Source: an uncultured Bacteroidales bacterium (GTDB lineage Bacteria > Bacteroidota > Bacteroidia > Bacteroidales > UBA932). Taken from it: a stretch of DNA of 35,023 nucleotides. The stretch covers positions 1-35,023 of the forward strand of contig CANBDZ010000013.1 of the NCBI GenBank assembly GCA_947367375.1, written 5' to 3'. Under the pieces are notes generated by a model that searched no databases, was not told the DNA's origin, and saw only the letters and a program-made list of their open reading frames with translations. A program made the translations under genes and the position numbers. Positions 5,085 through 35,023 of the stretch are shown here, piece by piece; the first letter of the stretch is position 1, and every line of letters begins with the position of its first letter.

Positions 5085-6206
5085 ATGAATGTGGAGAGAG
5101 ATATGGCGGGGTTTACCTTACCTTTTGCTGTCGGCGCTTTCGTTGCCGCATACGCAGGACACCTCCTGCACACTGGAAATCTGTCACATATAACCCTTTC
5201 TCTGGCTGTCACATCAGTGCTGACTGCCCTGCTGCTGCACCCGGTACACAAGAAGTTCAGGCCAGCATGTATCTGGCTGAGTATAGGAGGTTTAGGGATA
5301 GCGGCAGGTATGTTCACATCTTTTCACGGAAGTGTGGCCGCAGTCAGTTCCCTGCCATGGCAGGTGGCGGCGGCCGAAGAATTCGGCGAAGCCTTGCGCG
5401 GGGCTGTAGACAAGATTCCGTTCACAGACACAGAGACCAATGCCCTTATCAAAGCCCTTCTCACCGGCGAAAGATCGGAACTGACGCAGCAGACAATCAA
5501 AGCGTTCCGCGACAGCGGAGCATCGCATATCCTGGCCCTGTCAGGACTTCATCTAGGTATAATATATGGGATTGTAAGACATTCATTATCAGTCATTGGC
5601 AATTCAAGGACTGCTTTGTATACGAAGACCCTCATAACCATATCCGCCTGCGGATTCTACACCCTCGCGACCGGAGCCGGCCCCTCGATTGTAAGAGCCT
5701 TCCTTTTCATATTTCTGAACGAAATCGCCCGTGCCTCCCATCGTCATCACACCACGGGAAGTGTGCTTTTCGCAGCACTCATCATCCAGACAGTCATATC
5801 CCCCTCCTCAATAAGATCTGTCGGCTTTCAGCTGTCATATGCAGCAATGGCCGGAATAGCCTTTATATATCCCTGGCTTCGTGACTTCTGGCCCTCAGGG
5901 GAAGGCGATCCGACAAGTCTGAGGTCGCGTATGAATCTAATGAAACGAATATGGGAAGCAGCCTCACTGTCGATAGCATGTCAAATCACAACAGGGCCTT
6001 TGGCGTATATATATTTCAAAAGCCTGCCGCTCAATTTTATTCTGACCAACTTGATTGCACTTCCGCTGACTACAGCACTGATTCCCTCCGCACTGATCAC
6101 GACAGCGCTGCACAGCGCAGGCATATGCCCTAACGCAGCCATACGTATTACCGAATGGCTGGCACAAATTCTTTTACGTTCGTTGGAAATTATAGCCGGG
6201 ATGTAG
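5085..6206 (+). CDS. comEC: ComEC/Rec2 competence-domain membrane protein, short form
   Basis: The 373-residue polytopic membrane protein carries the ComEC/Rec2 core (Competence domain). Seen are LLTGERSELTQQTIKAFRDSG, ASHILALSGLHLGIIYG near residue 145-160, TGAGPSIVRAFLF near residue 200, and VGFQLSYAAMAGIAFIYPWL. In full-length homologues this channel moves single-stranded DNA across the inner membrane during uptake. Here both the N-terminal OB-type DUF4131 region and the C-terminal metallo-beta-lactamase-like domain of long ComEC proteins are missing. There is no room upstream because the divergent ackA promoter lies there, and apbE follows convergently after 2 bases. It may be a minimal family member or a relic; no frameshift is visible inside the frame. 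Confidence 0.85.
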   Translation: MNVERDMAGFTLPFAVGAFVAAYAGHLLHTGNLSHITLSLAVTSVLTALLLHPVHKKFRPACIWLSIGGLGIAAGMFTSFHGSVAAVSSLPWQVAAAEEFGEALRGAVDKIPFTDTETNALIKALLTGERSELTQQTIKAFRDSGASHILALSGLHLGIIYGIVRHSLSVIGNSRTALYTKTLITISACGFYTLATGAGPSIVRAFLFIFLNEIARASHRHHTTGSVLFAALIIQTVISPSSIRSVGFQLSYAAMAGIAFIYPWLRDFWPSGEGDPTSLRSRMNLMKRIWEAASLSIACQITTGPLAYIYFKSLPLNFILTNLIALPLTTALIPSALITTALHSAGICPNAAIRITEWLAQILLRSLEIIAGM

Positions 6207-30499: not shown

Positions 30500-30530
30500 A
30501 GAGGCTCTCACATCAGTGGGAGCCTTTTTC
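30500..30530 (+). terminator. Terminator after the DJ-1 gene
   Basis: AGGCTCTCAC and GTGGGAGCCT pair over 10 bp (one G-T) with a 4-base loop, followed by TTTTT. It abuts the end of the convergent Stealth gene. Confidence 0.85.
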
Positions 30531-31489
30531 TATATTGTTATATTTAATTTTGACGTTATCCATTCCTGCAATGTGCGCCTGTCCTCTTCCGACGCAAGGT
30601 CTATAGAGTTGAAGCAGGCGAAAGGACCTTTGAAAGAGCGAAGGAGCTCCATCTTGCGGGAGAAATAGCCCGGCTTGTCCTTCGGCTGGAAGAAGAAGAG
30701 TCTGCCATCTGCCGGACGGAGTTCAATCTTATGCTGAGAGTCCAGCAATGTATACTGAAGCACTGTCGGAACAAACTGCGAGGCATCCCTGAAGCGATGG
30801 CATATATTCCTTCTCAGTATATCCTTATGGGCTTCAAAATACTCTTCATAAACATCACGTCTCAACGCCTTCTGGCAATGAGCCGGCCTTATGTACGACA
30901 TGCGGGCTCCGGCAAGCATAGCCGCATTCATCTGCAGTCCCTTTGTCGTCACAGCCTTGCTTCCACCCGAATTCCTTTTCAGCAGTCTTGTAAGCCTGTC
31001 CCAGAAAATCGATGATCTTCCGCCGTACACAACCGGAGTACCGTCTGGAAGATAGAAATCTTCCGGAGTCACAGGAGCAAGGAGCATCAGATCGTCATTG
31101 AATTCAAGGAAGCGGTCACTCAGTCCCGGAATACGCCAGGTCATTGACTCTATAGAAACCGAATTGAAAGTAGGAAGGCAGTCTTCATATCCTTTGAAAA
31201 GGACCTTATGATCCACTATCTCCACCGGTATATATCCTTCTGGAAAATTTCTCTCAAGAAAAGCATCAAGACCGGGATCCTGCTCGTCAGTGACTATATA
31301 GATCTTATTCAGCCACGGAGCATAACGATTGAGAGAGGCCACGCACCAGAATATCTCACCCAGGTCTGCATAGCGAGTCTCCCCCGCCTTGTCATTTGAC
31401 ATCAGCTGGCCCGCAGAGGCATATTTCATCCTCTTTTCACGATGACGAGCGTCATTGCCGTCAACCCAGGTAATAACAGCATCTATCAT
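30530..31489 (-). CDS. Stealth-family sugar-phosphate transferase (second gene)
   Basis: The 319-residue product carries the Stealth conserved regions: CR1 MIDAVITWVDGND, CR2 RYADLGEIFWCVASLNRYAPWLNKIYIVTDEQDP and LPTFNSVSIESMTWRIPGLSDRFLEFNDD, then CR3-like RPAHCQKALRRDVYEEYFEAH and a C-terminal CR4-like region (GPFACFNSIDL). Stealth proteins transfer sugar-1-phosphate units to build phosphodiester-linked capsules, and the human GlcNAc-1-phosphotransferase belongs to the same family. It lacks a signal peptide or membrane segment and should act at the cytoplasmic face. Its ATG overlaps the stop of the other Stealth gene (ATGA), so the two are coupled. Confidence 0.92.
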   Translation of the reverse strand: MIDAVITWVDGNDARHREKRMKYASAGQLMSNDKAGETRYADLGEIFWCVASLNRYAPWLNKIYIVTDEQDPGLDAFLERNFPEGYIPVEIVDHKVLFKGYEDCLPTFNSVSIESMTWRIPGLSDRFLEFNDDLMLLAPVTPEDFYLPDGTPVVYGGRSSIFWDRLTRLLKRNSGGSKAVTTKGLQMNAAMLAGARMSYIRPAHCQKALRRDVYEEYFEAHKDILRRNICHRFRDASQFVPTVLQYTLLDSQHKIELRPADGRLFFFQPKDKPGYFSRKMELLRSFKGPFACFNSIDLASEEDRRTLQEWITSKLNITI

Positions 31490-32364
31490 TTCTCAAAGCG
31501 CGATCTGTTCGGGAACCTCTTTTCGAAGGCTGCAAGCAGTGACTCTCTCATCACTACATACTTCGATTCCGGTATCTTCACATCGTTTATACAGCAGAGC
31601 TTCTTCGAAGGAGACTCAAGGAAGGCAGAAAGGGTGTCCATACCTGTGACAGCAAGAGAAAAATGCTTGCCCTGGATCCTCTCGGAGATTGCCATACCTT
31701 TATAATATATGTAATCCAGCATCAGGTTCTGATTTACATTAGAATCGTTCCTGACGCGGGAAAGCGTAGCCTTTATATCCTTATCTAGCAGAGCTGAAAC
31801 TTCCTGGCACTGACTGCGAAGAAGCGGAAGACAGATGTGCTGTGCCCTGACAAATCCAAGTCCCGGCTTCATTCCAAGGGCCTTTCTTGCCATATGGTCC
31901 GATCGTCTGCAATGCTTCTTGTACATACCGGATGCAAGGATATGTTTTGAGAAGCCTACCACGATCTTTCCATTCCTGAAGAAGTCCTGAGGGCTGCATT
32001 CCTTGACAGGGAAGATGTCGTCGTTGAAGTACAGGTACTCCTCATCCAATCCCTCGATCCTGTGAAGGAACATTTCGATAGTCGTACTGTTGAATGTAGG
32101 AAGGTATTCTGCAGGTATGATGTCCTTGTGAAGAACAATCTTCAGGTTTTCCTGGTCAGCCCAAGAAGGTACCTGCGAAGGATGCGAGACCACGAGGTAG
32201 ACATTTCTGATGAAAGGCATGTTCACCTCAATTCCTCTGAGCAGGTACTTCAAAGTTCCCCAGTCACGGAAACGCTTCTCCATCACAGGGACATTTGTGT
32301 ACGCCTCATAGTCCTTCTTCCAGAAAGGATCATTACCATCTACGTATGTAATAACGATATCCAT
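31486..32364 (-). CDS. Stealth-family sugar-phosphate transferase (first gene)
   Basis: From the ATG at 32364 the product has 292 residues (MDIVITYVDGNDPFWKKDY). The track start is a TTG 12 codons upstream that falls at the edge of a TACATTTG -7 element, so it is rejected. Conserved regions: CR1 MDIVITYVDGND, CR2 RDWGTLKYLLRGIEVNMPFIRNVYLVVSHPSQVPSW, LPTFNSTTIEMFLHRIEGLDEEYLYFNDDIF, and CR3-like VRAQHICLPLLRSQCQEVSALL. It is distinct from its neighbour (DYxxYTN region, Cys-rich middle), so the pair are diverged paralogues rather than a fresh duplication. No other capsule genes lie beside them. Confidence 0.92.
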   Translation of the reverse strand: MDIVITYVDGNDPFWKKDYEAYTNVPVMEKRFRDWGTLKYLLRGIEVNMPFIRNVYLVVSHPSQVPSWADQENLKIVLHKDIIPAEYLPTFNSTTIEMFLHRIEGLDEEYLYFNDDIFPVKECSPQDFFRNGKIVVGFSKHILASGMYKKHCRRSDHMARKALGMKPGLGFVRAQHICLPLLRSQCQEVSALLDKDIKATLSRVRNDSNVNQNLMLDYIYYKGMAISERIQGKHFSLAVTGMDTLSAFLESPSKKLCCINDVKIPESKYVVMRESLLAAFEKRFPNRSRFEK

Positions 32365-32388: not shown

Positions 32389-32396
32389 CAAATGTA
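32389..32396 (-). promoter_or_regulatory. Candidate -7 element of the Stealth operon
   Basis: On the minus strand TACATTTG matches TAnnTTTG, 24 bases before the ATG at 32364. No convincing -33 TTTG was found. Confidence 0.5.
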
Positions 32397-32419
32397 GCAA
32401 ATTTCGGCAGGAGAAAGCG

Positions 32420-32498
32420 TTAAAAAAAGATTGAAAGACGTTAAAAAAAAGTTTAAAACTTTAAAAAAAGAGAAAAATCTCGTTTTTCTTTTTTTAAA
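32420..32498. promoter_or_regulatory. Phased A-tract spacer between Stealth and fimbrial operons
   Basis: A-tracts are centred near 32425, 32435, 32446, 32456, 32466 and 32475, about 10 bases apart, followed by T-tracts to 32495. Two inverted repeats lie inside: AAAGTTT-A-AAACTTT (32448-32462) and a 15-bp imperfect arm pair from TTAAAAAAAG to CTTTTTTTAA (32461-32497). Phased A-tracts bend DNA; both flanking operons are transcribed away from it. Confidence 0.55.
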
Positions 32499-32525
32499 TC
32501 ACGCAATGCTCTGAATGCCGCAATA

Positions 32526-32533
32526 TAGATTTG
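32526..32533 (+). promoter_or_regulatory. Candidate -7 element of the fimbrial locus
   Basis: TAGATTTG matches TAnnTTTG and lies only 12 bases before the ATG at 32546, predicting an almost leaderless transcript. It overlaps the TTG used as the start in the track. Confidence 0.5.
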
Positions 32534-32545
32534 CGAACAAAAAGT

Positions 32546-33058
32546 ATGAAACGTCTGATACTTTCAATATGCGCATCGGCGGCTCTAATTCCCTGTTCCG
32601 GACAAGTCCGGGGACATATCGGAGCCGGCGTGACAGAGATGCTGACAAAAGAAGCGGCAGGTATATACATAGGTCACAGCTTATCACCGAAGTGGTCAAT
32701 TGAAAGCGGAGCGGTGTTCAAGCTCCCGCATCACGGAAGGTCAGGCAACGAAGAATGGAAGGAACATGTCAACGAGTTTACAGATGAGGTCACAAAGGAA
32801 AAGTCACAAGTACCTGCAAGGTTTACCGTCAGTCTCAGACATTGGAATCACAGTGCCTATGACGGAGGCTGCATACTTGTCGGAATCACGCAGTATGAGG
32901 AGAACCTTCCGGTCATACACACCGGAGCCGCCTACTGCATGAAACTGTGCAGGCACATCGGCCTGGACCTGTCCTTCAGGATAAATCTGAACGGATACAG
33001 TACGTCCAAGGCCATAACCGGAAACGGGATAACATTAACAATAGACTATTTATTCTGA
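32546..33058 (+). CDS. Small exported beta-rich protein at the head of a fimbrial locus
   Basis: From the ATG at 32546 the product has 170 residues with a Sec signal (MKRLILSICASAALIPCSGQ). The mature part alternates hydrophobic residues (ARFTVSLRHWNHSAYDGGCILVGITQY, KLCRHIGLDLSFRINLNGY) and ends ITLTIDYLF. The terminal Phe and beta pattern suit a small outer-membrane barrel. Many Bacteroides fimbrial operons begin with a small outer-membrane protein such as DUF3575, but I cannot confirm that family here. The next gene starts 2 bases after the stop. The track start (TTG at 32531) is rejected because it lies in the -7 element. Confidence 0.7.
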   Translation: MKRLILSICASAALIPCSGQVRGHIGAGVTEMLTKEAAGIYIGHSLSPKWSIESGAVFKLPHHGRSGNEEWKEHVNEFTDEVTKEKSQVPARFTVSLRHWNHSAYDGGCILVGITQYEENLPVIHTGAAYCMKLCRHIGLDLSFRINLNGYSTSKAITGNGITLTIDYLF

Positions 33059-33060
33059 AT

Positions 33061-34113
33061 ATGGGAAAACAGCATCGGGACAGATTCAATCTACAGTCAC
33101 ACATCTCACTTGCTACATCAAACACACCCATTCTGGGACGCATCATCACATTGCTACACCTTGTCCCGGCTGTTCTGTGCGGATGTTCAGATGCGGAACA
33201 TCCCGCTTATGAAGAGATCCGGAGGGAAATTGGCATCGCTTTGACAAAGAGTCAGGATGTCAAGGGCCCTCTGGACATCTTCGTTTTCGAGGACGACAGG
33301 ATGCAGAGGCTGGACTGCTATCTGCGTCTTGAAGACTTCAGTTTATGGAAAGGAGGAGTAGTCACCGGAAGCGGAGACCGCATCATATCATTTGTCACAG
33401 GAATACAGAAAAAGAAAGAAGACTGGACCGGCATCACTTCCAGAGCGGCTCTGGAGAAGGTTACGGTCAACCTCGAGGATGAAAGCAGAGACGCTGCGAT
33501 AATGAGCGGGGAAACAACGGGATCCACCGCTGAACTAGTCCCGGTATCAAGCCAGATATGTCTGGAACGGCTCTCATGTGACTTCACCGGGAAACCGTAC
33601 TCAGACAACAGTATAAAAGAGGTGAAAGTCTACCTGACCAACGTCAATGCCAGCTGCGGAATACTGGCATCAGGAGAGATCTCCCCTACCCGCATCATCA
33701 ACCAAGGCAGACTTTCGGAGGAAGATCTGGCCGGATTCAAGGATAAAAGCCTTGTCTGTCACCATGTGAAGGATCCTGTAGGAAAGTCAGACAGCTGGAC
33801 TCCGATAGACTTTCTATGCTATCCGAACAACGCGTCTGAAGAGGGTCCCGGCACACCTTTCACCAGACTGGTCATCGAAGGGAAGGTGGACGGAAGGACA
33901 TTCTACTGGCCGATCGACATCAACAGGAATGAAAGGCAAGGAGTCGACCGGGCAGGGAGCGGAATAGACAGAGGCAGAAGATACACCTTCGACATAACCA
34001 TAACCGGTAAAGGAGTGTCTGATCCGGACACCCCGGTAAGTTCTGAATATGTAGACGTAAACTTCAAGATAAAGGAATGGGAAGAACAGGAAGACTATGC
34101 AATTTTATTCTGA
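33061..34113 (+). CDS. Fimbrillin-like lipoprotein
   Basis: From the ATG at 33061 the product has 350 residues. The signal region is long and atypical: 27 polar residues, then ILGRIITLLHLVPAVLCGC with Cys42 as the likely lipidated residue. The body has the two-domain beta pattern of FimA/Mfa1-superfamily fimbrillins: GPLDIFVFEDDRMQRLDCYL near residue 70, VKVYLTNVNASCGIL near residue 190, FYWPIDINRNE, and the C-terminal RGRRYTFDITITGKGVSDPDTPV followed by VNFKIKEWEE. Such subunits are exported as lipoproteins, cut by an Arg-gingipain-like protease, and polymerised. Whether this is stalk or tip is not clear. The next gene overlaps it by 37 bases. Confidence 0.72.
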   Translation: MGKQHRDRFNLQSHISLATSNTPILGRIITLLHLVPAVLCGCSDAEHPAYEEIRREIGIALTKSQDVKGPLDIFVFEDDRMQRLDCYLRLEDFSLWKGGVVTGSGDRIISFVTGIQKKKEDWTGITSRAALEKVTVNLEDESRDAAIMSGETTGSTAELVPVSSQICLERLSCDFTGKPYSDNSIKEVKVYLTNVNASCGILASGEISPTRIINQGRLSEEDLAGFKDKSLVCHHVKDPVGKSDSWTPIDFLCYPNNASEEGPGTPFTRLVIEGKVDGRTFYWPIDINRNERQGVDRAGSGIDRGRRYTFDITITGKGVSDPDTPVSSEYVDVNFKIKEWEEQEDYAILF

Positions 34114-35023
34114 GACATGCAGCCACAATAGCCGTCATCTGTGCGCCGGGCTGCACCTTCTCAGTTGTCGAAAGAGACGAATATGTGATGACCACAATAA
34201 ATCTCACAGGAGGTAACATGATCACAAAAGCAGCAGACCCGAACGAGGAGCTCATCACAGACATAAGTCTGATGGTGTTCGACGAGCACGGGGATGCGGA
34301 GGAGTGCACATGGTTGACAGGCGGCAGGACCAGCCACATGACAAGGCTCATCAAAGGCAAGAAATATATAATATGCGCCTGTGCCAATTTTGGTCATCAG
34401 GTCTACGCAGACAACATAGACGAACTTGACGAAATCACTTACCACATCGCCTATCCGGACGAATATCGTGAAGGCATCCCGATGTGCGCGAGGGCTGAGA
34501 CTGTTGTCACCAAAGATGGCGAGATAACTGTCGAACTTGAAAGGTTGATGTCAAAGATCAGCCTCAAGATAGACAGGACTATGCTCTCGGAAGATGTGGA
34601 GATGAATGTACGCTCCGCCCTTATAGGAAACTGCCCACGCGTCACCAAAGTATTCACCGACAACAGAGCAGAAGATGAAGATGACTGCTTCCCATTGGGA
34701 TTCTACAGAAACGAGCTCCAGGCTGCCATTCTGAACTCCGATGCCGGAGGCGGTATCAGCAGGGAGATATCCTTATATATGTTGGAAAACCTGCAAGGCG
34801 AGATGCCATTCCACGTCGGCAGCGACAGCGACAAGATCTTCGGCAGCAACGACCTGCGAAATCAGACCTGCTCTTACATAGAACTTGAAATAGAGTACAG
34901 CTCAGACACTTACATCAGCGGTAGCGAAGGCCTCATCTACAGATTCTACCTTGGAGAAGACAGAAACAACCTCGATGTCAGACGCAACACCCACTACCAC
35001 ATCACGGTGACTCCACAGGACAC
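34077..35023 (+). CDS. DUF4906-type fimbrial lipoprotein (partial, runs off the window; absent from the ORF track)
   Basis: An open frame from the ATG at 34077 to the right edge gives 315 codons. It starts MGRTGRLCNFILRHAATIAVICAPGC, a lipoprotein-like signal with Cys26, and overlaps the previous gene by 37 bases in another frame. The body shows TTINLTGGNMITKAADPNEELITDISLMVFDEHGD, KKYIICACANFG, IPMCARAETVV, VELERLMSKISLKID, then SLYMLENLQGEMP and a TCSYIELEIEYSS...YRFYLGEDRNNLDVRRNTHYHITVTPQD segment. These are typical of Bacteroidota fimbrillin proteins with DUF4906 or FimB/Mfa2-like regions. It probably anchors or caps the same fimbria as the gene before it. The C-terminus lies outside the window. 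Confidence 0.78.
   Translation, partial: MGRTGRLCNFILRHAATIAVICAPGCTFSVVERDEYVMTTINLTGGNMITKAADPNEELITDISLMVFDEHGDAEECTWLTGGRTSHMTRLIKGKKYIICACANFGHQVYADNIDELDEITYHIAYPDEYREGIPMCARAETVVTKDGEITVELERLMSKISLKIDRTMLSEDVEMNVRSALIGNCPRVTKVFTDNRAEDEDDCFPLGFYRNELQAAILNSDAGGGISREISLYMLENLQGEMPFHVGSDSDKIFGSNDLRNQTCSYIELEIEYSSDTYISGSEGLIYRFYLGEDRNNLDVRRNTHYHITVTPQD

Follow-up and report, generated by a model that had tools for sequence, protein, structure and literature searches.

In the Sxy-dependent CRP-S regulon of Haemophilus and other Pasteurellaceae, one promoter element is common to unlinked transformation genes. Competence regulons of this type are mentioned in PMC5809987. In Streptococcus pneumoniae, radC, dprA, ssbB, and comF are on the list of late-competence genes under ComX, and Rpn-like genes are also ComX-regulated (PMC6560143). 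Regarding the Bacteroidota, transformation in Riemerella anatipestifer needs DprA, YifB, a HhH protein, and ComEC (PMC8459023), and that in Porphyromonas gingivalis needs ComF, ComEA, and ComEC, with import into the periplasm being called unclear (PMC11532111). In these papers (PMC11532111; PMC8459023), the crossing of the outer membrane by DNA in Bacteroidota is called unclear and competence signals are only speculated on; no shared regulatory element is described in either source to the extent searched.

The present study concerns an A-tract array at positions 32418-32500 of a 35,023-nucleotide stretch of Bacteroidales DNA (hereafter, the window), located between divergent Stealth and fimbrial genes. 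The original prediction regarded this array as a shared bend or nucleoid-protein site that silences or alternates the two operons. Judging from the sequence comparisons described below, the array is not a one-off bend; it is a copy of a recurring promoter element.

Structure of the A-tract array

The AT content of the array is 84%, against 51% for the whole window. The predicted series of six A-tracts approximately 10 bases apart with accompanying T-tracts was confirmed by the positions of the runs (32425-32492), with A-runs centered at 32425 (7 A), 32435 (3), 32446.5 (8), 32456.5 (4), 32466 (7), and 32475 (5), and T-runs at 32485 (5) and 32492 (7). The long A-runs are spaced by 20-21 bp, which corresponds to two helical turns, and since the shorter runs are placed midway, the overall A-tract spacing is approximately 10 bp. 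The inverted repeats, anticipated at 7 and 15 bp, were found as AAAGTTT/AAACTTT (7 bp) and TTTAAAAAAAGAGAAA/TTTTTCTTTTTTTAAA (16 nt, 94%).

On the forward strand, the array consists of three A-tract direct repeats of 20-21 bp and a T-rich arm that follows them; a long A-run and, halfway, a shorter one are present in each repeat. The repeat search located unit 1, CGTTAAAAAAAGATTGAAAGA, at 32418..32438 (+; family D1, start-to-start 21), unit 2, CGTTAAAAAAAAGTTTAAAAC, at 32439..32459 (+), and unit 3, TTTAAAAAAAGAGAAAAATCT, at 32460..32480 (+). Unit 3, the second half of the regulon element, was also recovered by alignment and by R1, a sequence-only covariance model of 40 bp built from array copies. 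Units 2 and 3 together represent the 40-bp regulon element, with an R1 match of 30.8 bits at 32442-32480. The T-rich arm, TTTTTCTTTTTTTAAATC (32483..32500, +; repeat search and alignment), is the inverted-repeat partner of unit 3, and TCTTTTTTTAAATC within this arm is identical in two related genomes, G063 and G032. Near copies of the 20-21 bp direct-repeat structure, which was absent from the original prediction, are present elsewhere in the genome.

While resampled sequence yielded 0-1 arrays with at least four A/T runs, each of at least 5, within 80 bp, 25 such arrays were counted in 818,711 bases of the host genome. The window array is, thus, not attributable to chance; it is the strongest of its class in these bases, with six runs of at least 5, four of which are at least 7. 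Regarding curvature, a wedge model placed the array at the 99.8th percentile of the window, with a predicted bend of approximately 72 degrees over 84 bp. Several other sites in the window equal this predicted bend without the motif.

Promoters and flanking operons

The Bacteroidota -7 consensus is TAnnTTTG. A candidate -7 box for the fimbrial operon, TAGATTTG, was identified at 32526..32533 (+) from sequence and alignment, and one for the Stealth gene, TACATTTG, at 32389..32396 (-) from sequence, repeat I9, and alignment. The host, G063, and G032 have a common divergent Stealth/fimbrial gene order, and the spacer has remained AT-rich in both relatives, as expected from the original prediction. 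Alignment of the three spacers brings the array, the arm TCTTTTTTTAAATC, and the box ATAGATTTGC into register, and the distance from the T-rich arm to ATAGATTTG is exactly 24 bp in 3/3 species. On the Stealth side, some TAnnTTTG-like box occurs in each of the three species, and its distance to the array varies. Since spacing and the -7 box are kept on the fimbrial side and spacing is not kept on the Stealth side, the fimbrial promoter is the best assignment for the array according to these alignments. Conservation gives no support for effects of the array on Stealth, which are nonetheless possible. Stealth orthologues elsewhere mostly have different gene neighborhoods that lack the array, which suggests that the array does not follow Stealth.

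The fimbrial operon is a candidate type V (FimA/Mfa) pilus operon, with weak Pfam matches for its subunits. Gene 1 (32546..33058, +) encodes 170 aa with a signal-peptide-like start and no Pfam family; its orthologue in G032 showed a marginal DUF3575 match, and a contig scan with the 170-aa protein as the query found no relative. Gene 2 (33061..34113, +) encodes 350 aa with a lipoprotein-like N-terminus and weak Mfa2/FimA-type matches (Pfam and sequence). Gene 3 (34077..35021, +), which was assigned to DUF4906 by Pfam, continues past the window end, and its orthologue in G063 showed P_gingi_FimA and FimD matches in addition to fimbrillin-like fold matches. AlphaFold models of genes 2 and 3 were of low confidence, and the fold search covered gene 3 only; its low-confidence model showed likeness to FimA, Mfa2, and Bacteroides fimbrillin-like proteins, with Foldseek E-values to 5e-11 (Bacteroides fimbrillin-like) and 1e-8 (FimA) at a pLDDT of 54 and TM-scores of 0.2-0.35.

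The divergent neighbor encodes a Stealth CR2/CR4 protein (31486..32364, -), and a second Stealth gene (CR1/CR2) is located in the same operon (30530..31489, -). For comparison with this pair (30530-32364), three Stealth genes are present in tandem at G007:C21:13423-15857 (L012, L033, and L037). An Rfam scan of the window returned no RNA family, and terminator and sigma-70 scans returned nothing beyond chance.

Recurrence of the element

The host genome (G000) is a MAG of 2.69 Mb (85.8% complete, 3.5% contamination). A nucleotide search of this genome with the spacer detected seven other places with 75-90% identity over approximately 38-84 bp. The consensus of the aligned copies, GTTAAAAAAAAAGCAAAACTTTAAAAAAAGAGAAAAATCT, is an A-rich direct repeat, the conserved positions of which include non-A bases. 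With R1, 13 sites in the host genome scored above 25 bits, 11 of which, or their neighbors, were included in the training set, and the next best site scored 19.7.

At E<=0.01, R1 matched 18 of the 101 genomes of the genus, five of which had at least five matches (G000, 16; G063, 16; G024, 8; G080, 8; and G026, 5). G125, an additional member of the genus, had two matches, and the 97 genomes of other genera in the order yielded five weak matches only. Since matches are strong in some members of the genus and weak outside, the element is specific to a subclade and does not reflect a generic A-tract effect. The generality of the element across the genus, which was assessed by comparing dprA and comM with purC, was rejected because it was not found beyond the subclade; only 2/59 upstream regions of dprA and comM in other genus members exceeded 8 bits.

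At most sites, the A-rich strand reads toward a gene start 60-140 bp downstream, and a TAnnTTTG-like box lies between the element and gene start at many of them. The exceptions are comM and comF, for which the T-rich strand reads toward the gene at 30-56 bp.

Genes associated with the element

Target groups were defined as genes flanking the sites of a broader model, R2, in nine genomes, grouped by orthology. These groups were RAYT-like Y1 transposases (11 genes, 5 genomes), Rpn/PDDEXK nucleases (7 genes, 5 genomes), an AraC-type regulator and dprA (5 genomes each), ssb (4 grouped genes, next to which a small cysteine-rich protein is encoded divergently), radC, a ComEA-type HhH protein, a second, larger HhH protein, and comM/YifB (3 genomes each), comF (2 genomes), and gene 1 of the fimbrial operon (2, plus G032 by eye). 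The remaining groups, the labels of which are readings of the sequence and not database matches, were lipoproteins (4; no NCBIfam match for one tested member), YchF (3) with a divergent exported nuclease-like gene (2), and a 5'-nucleotidase-like gene (2). Pfam and NCBIfam confirmed DprA, SSB, RadC, YifB, HHH_3/ComEA, PDDEXK_2, and HTH_18; the ComF match (63 bits) was under the strict cut-off, as was the ComEA match.

The promoter-proximal element is, therefore, shared by unlinked dprA, HhH, ssb, radC, comM, and comF genes, and is kept at orthologous genes in 2-5 genomes within the subclade. The same bias was apparent in genomes where R1 matched only once or twice; two occurrences each of comM and ssb, in addition to dprA and radC, were among the 13. 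The enrichment of transformation genes was approximately 1e-10 in a hypergeometric calculation, for which the gene set was picked after the first matches, gene totals were assumed, and some G063 sites were weak. We are confident that a repeated promoter element is common to transformation genes in several species. Some targets, such as YchF and unnamed lipoproteins, have no known link to uptake.

The candidacy of comEC as a target was rejected; no array was present upstream of this gene in six species. In the window, comEC (5085-6206) is divergent from its neighbor with a short spacer without an array. The MAG carries two DprA genes (G000:C4:4688-5320 and G000:C36:17581-18210), of which only the C4 copy has the element; contamination is possible. 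Elements at G000:C54:5239, G063:C2:158562, G000:C12:15276, and G024:C42:2515 lie beside YchF, which is paired with a divergent exported nuclease-like gene, and beside purine phosphoribosyltransferase-like and 5'-nucleotidase-like genes, hinting at nucleic-acid scavenging. One of the strongest elements is followed, in 2-3 species, by a gene for a small protein of approximately 70 aa (G000:C144:391, G063:C2:226484, and G080:C105:8275). REP-like palindromes distinct from the A-tract element were observed on both sides of one RAYT-like gene (CTCATAACGGT..ACCGTTATGAG; L080, G000:C99) and near another (CTCACGGGGGT..ACCCCCGTGAG; L003, G000:C102).

A candidate regulator

The AraC-type regulator is a predicted membrane protein of 367 aa (G000:C7:13276-14376) with hydrophobic segments in the N-terminal half and HTH_18 at the C terminus (35.4 bits). 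Its gene has the element in its own promoter, with a separate hairpin between the element and gene start. Full-length close orthologues were present in 9/101 genomes of the genus, 8/9 of which were among the 18 R1-matching genomes (Fisher P of approximately 2e-6, without phylogenetic correction); in the ninth, G032, arrays were recognized by eye and R2 matched at dprA.

A wider scan yielded approximately 40 full-length relatives, in MAGs mostly from the ruminant gut, that overlap with genomes already used, such as G063. A-tract units 17-24 bp apart were present upstream of the regulator gene in 32/40 relatives against 2/40 distant homologues, and the same count gave 1/29 for dprA and 1/30 for comM from other subclades and 0/30 for purC; the regular expression used in these counts was written after the sequences had been seen. 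The upstream regions of only 13/39 relatives reached 8 bits with the sequence model, which suggests that the motif drifts. Considering these associations, the AraC-type protein is a tentative candidate for the reader of the array, with odds slightly below even.

Discussion

We estimate a probability of approximately 60% that the array is an operator belonging to a competence-type regulon and controlling the fimbrial operon. This reading is weakened by the array-free comEC, the targets with no known tie to uptake, the scarcity of the element at dprA and comM of other genus members, the low complexity of A-rich motifs, and the 85.8% completeness of the MAG. The array would serve as a protein-binding operator and upstream promoter element for the three-gene Mfa/FimA-like operon, with direct repeats every 20-21 bp placing the sites on one face of the helix directly upstream of the promoter. 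A transcription factor, possibly the AraC-type membrane regulator with the array in its own promoter, may bind the array and activate transcription as part of a natural competence program, and A-tract curvature would be part of the working of the site and not a separate function. Since the element is also present at genes for binding, protecting, and recombining incoming DNA, as well as at ssDNA transposases and Rpn nucleases, the pilus-type operon is probably co-expressed with the competence program. This distribution suggests that induction of the operon accompanies DNA uptake and does not depend on a passive bend alone.

In line with the original prediction, the array looks like a regulatory A-tract structure. 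The idea of a nucleoid-protein bend that silences or alternates Stealth and fimbriae is not supported as stated: the -7 box and constant spacing are both on the side of the fimbrial gene, the -7 candidate for Stealth varies in position relative to the array, and unlinked DNA uptake and processing genes that have no Stealth gene beside them also carry the element. A related explanation is that the array is curved DNA with a constitutive effect, either UP-like or through nucleoid proteins, by which adjacent promoters are simply boosted or silenced, with the likeness among sites reflecting A-tract constraints only. The phasing of the A-tracts, the high percentile of the predicted bend, and the location directly upstream of promoters are consistent with such a site; however, equally bent sites in the window lack the motif, the 40-bp consensus keeps its non-A positions at unlinked loci, and the targets make up only a minority of genes, with coherent functions and conservation between species. 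We consider this explanation unlikely; the array is quite probably not a passive site of this kind but an operator for a transcription factor. Some copies start immediately after a stop codon (L042, L045, and L047), which would fit termination of transcription or a 3'-end function for the gene before them, but the window copy sits between divergent genes where the terminator scan found none, and the regulator gene has its separate hairpin between the element and start; a terminator function is, thus, extremely improbable.

The same kind of regulon may instead serve a program other than competence, such as DNA damage, nucleic-acid scavenging, or the response to mobile elements. The absence of comEC from the targets fits such a program, as do RadC, SSB, Rpn nucleases, RAYTs, and the nuclease-like and 5'-nucleotidase-like neighbors. 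On the other hand, a ComEA-type HhH protein, comM, comF, and dprA are jointly difficult to explain except by transformation (PMC8459023; PMC11532111). A program other than competence is unlikely, and competence is the probable program of the regulon. The RAYT-like genes raise a further explanation, in which the element is a dispersed mobile repeat spread by these transposases, as in REP/REPIN systems, without a role at the fimbrial operon. Eleven element-flanking genes are RAYT-like, several of which keep the HUH motif in spite of falling under the Pfam cut-off; however, the sites are constant in their side and their distance from gene starts and are retained at orthologues in other species, some RAYT genes have separate palindromic repeats of their own, and the element does not have the form of a GC-rich tagged hairpin. 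We regard the spread of a mobile repeat as very unlikely.

Regarding the function of the operon under the favored reading of a competence-type operator, a direct role for the fimbrial operon in DNA uptake is unlikely. Similarly, it is a long shot that the Mfa/FimA-like operon, under the control of the membrane AraC-type regulator via the array, provides natural transformation in this Bacteroidota lineage with its pilus for capturing DNA or its device for uptake across the outer membrane. The regulon-wide element provides a list of co-regulated candidates together with a candidate regulator. If the proposed reading is true, this would be the first predicted competence regulon in gut Bacteroidales within the literature searched, and a surface pilus-type operon would be tied to gene uptake.

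In comparison with known systems, helical-phase A-tracts directly upstream of promoters are shared with phased A-tract curved promoters and UP elements, whereas a specific 40-bp sequence recurs at a coherent gene set here; a literature search for A-tract or UP-element promoters in Bacteroides found nothing. The frequent location beside RAYT-like genes resembles REP/REPIN systems, from which the element differs in its AT-rich direct repeats at fixed promoter positions, its 13 clear copies, and the lack of a tagged GC-rich hairpin. The presence of one element on unlinked transformation genes is common to the CRP-S regulon, but the element here is an A-rich 20-bp direct repeat and not a palindromic CRP site, and comEC is not included. 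The inclusion of comEC in competence regulons is usual, not universal, and comEC is without an array here. In a comparison by eye with the known boxes, GTTAAAAAAAAAGCAAAACTTTAAAAAAAGAGAAAAATCT was neither a CRP-type palindrome nor a sigma-X box. The ComX (sigma-X) regulon of S. pneumoniae has radC, dprA, ssb-type, comF, and Rpn-like members in common with the present set; ComX acts as an alternative sigma factor that recognizes a promoter box of its own, whereas an upstream array precedes ordinary TAnnTTTG-like boxes here. In relation to R. anatipestifer and P. gingivalis, the genes that are necessary for transformation in these species, namely, DprA, YifB/ComM, HhH/ComEA, and ComF, carry the element in the present subclade.
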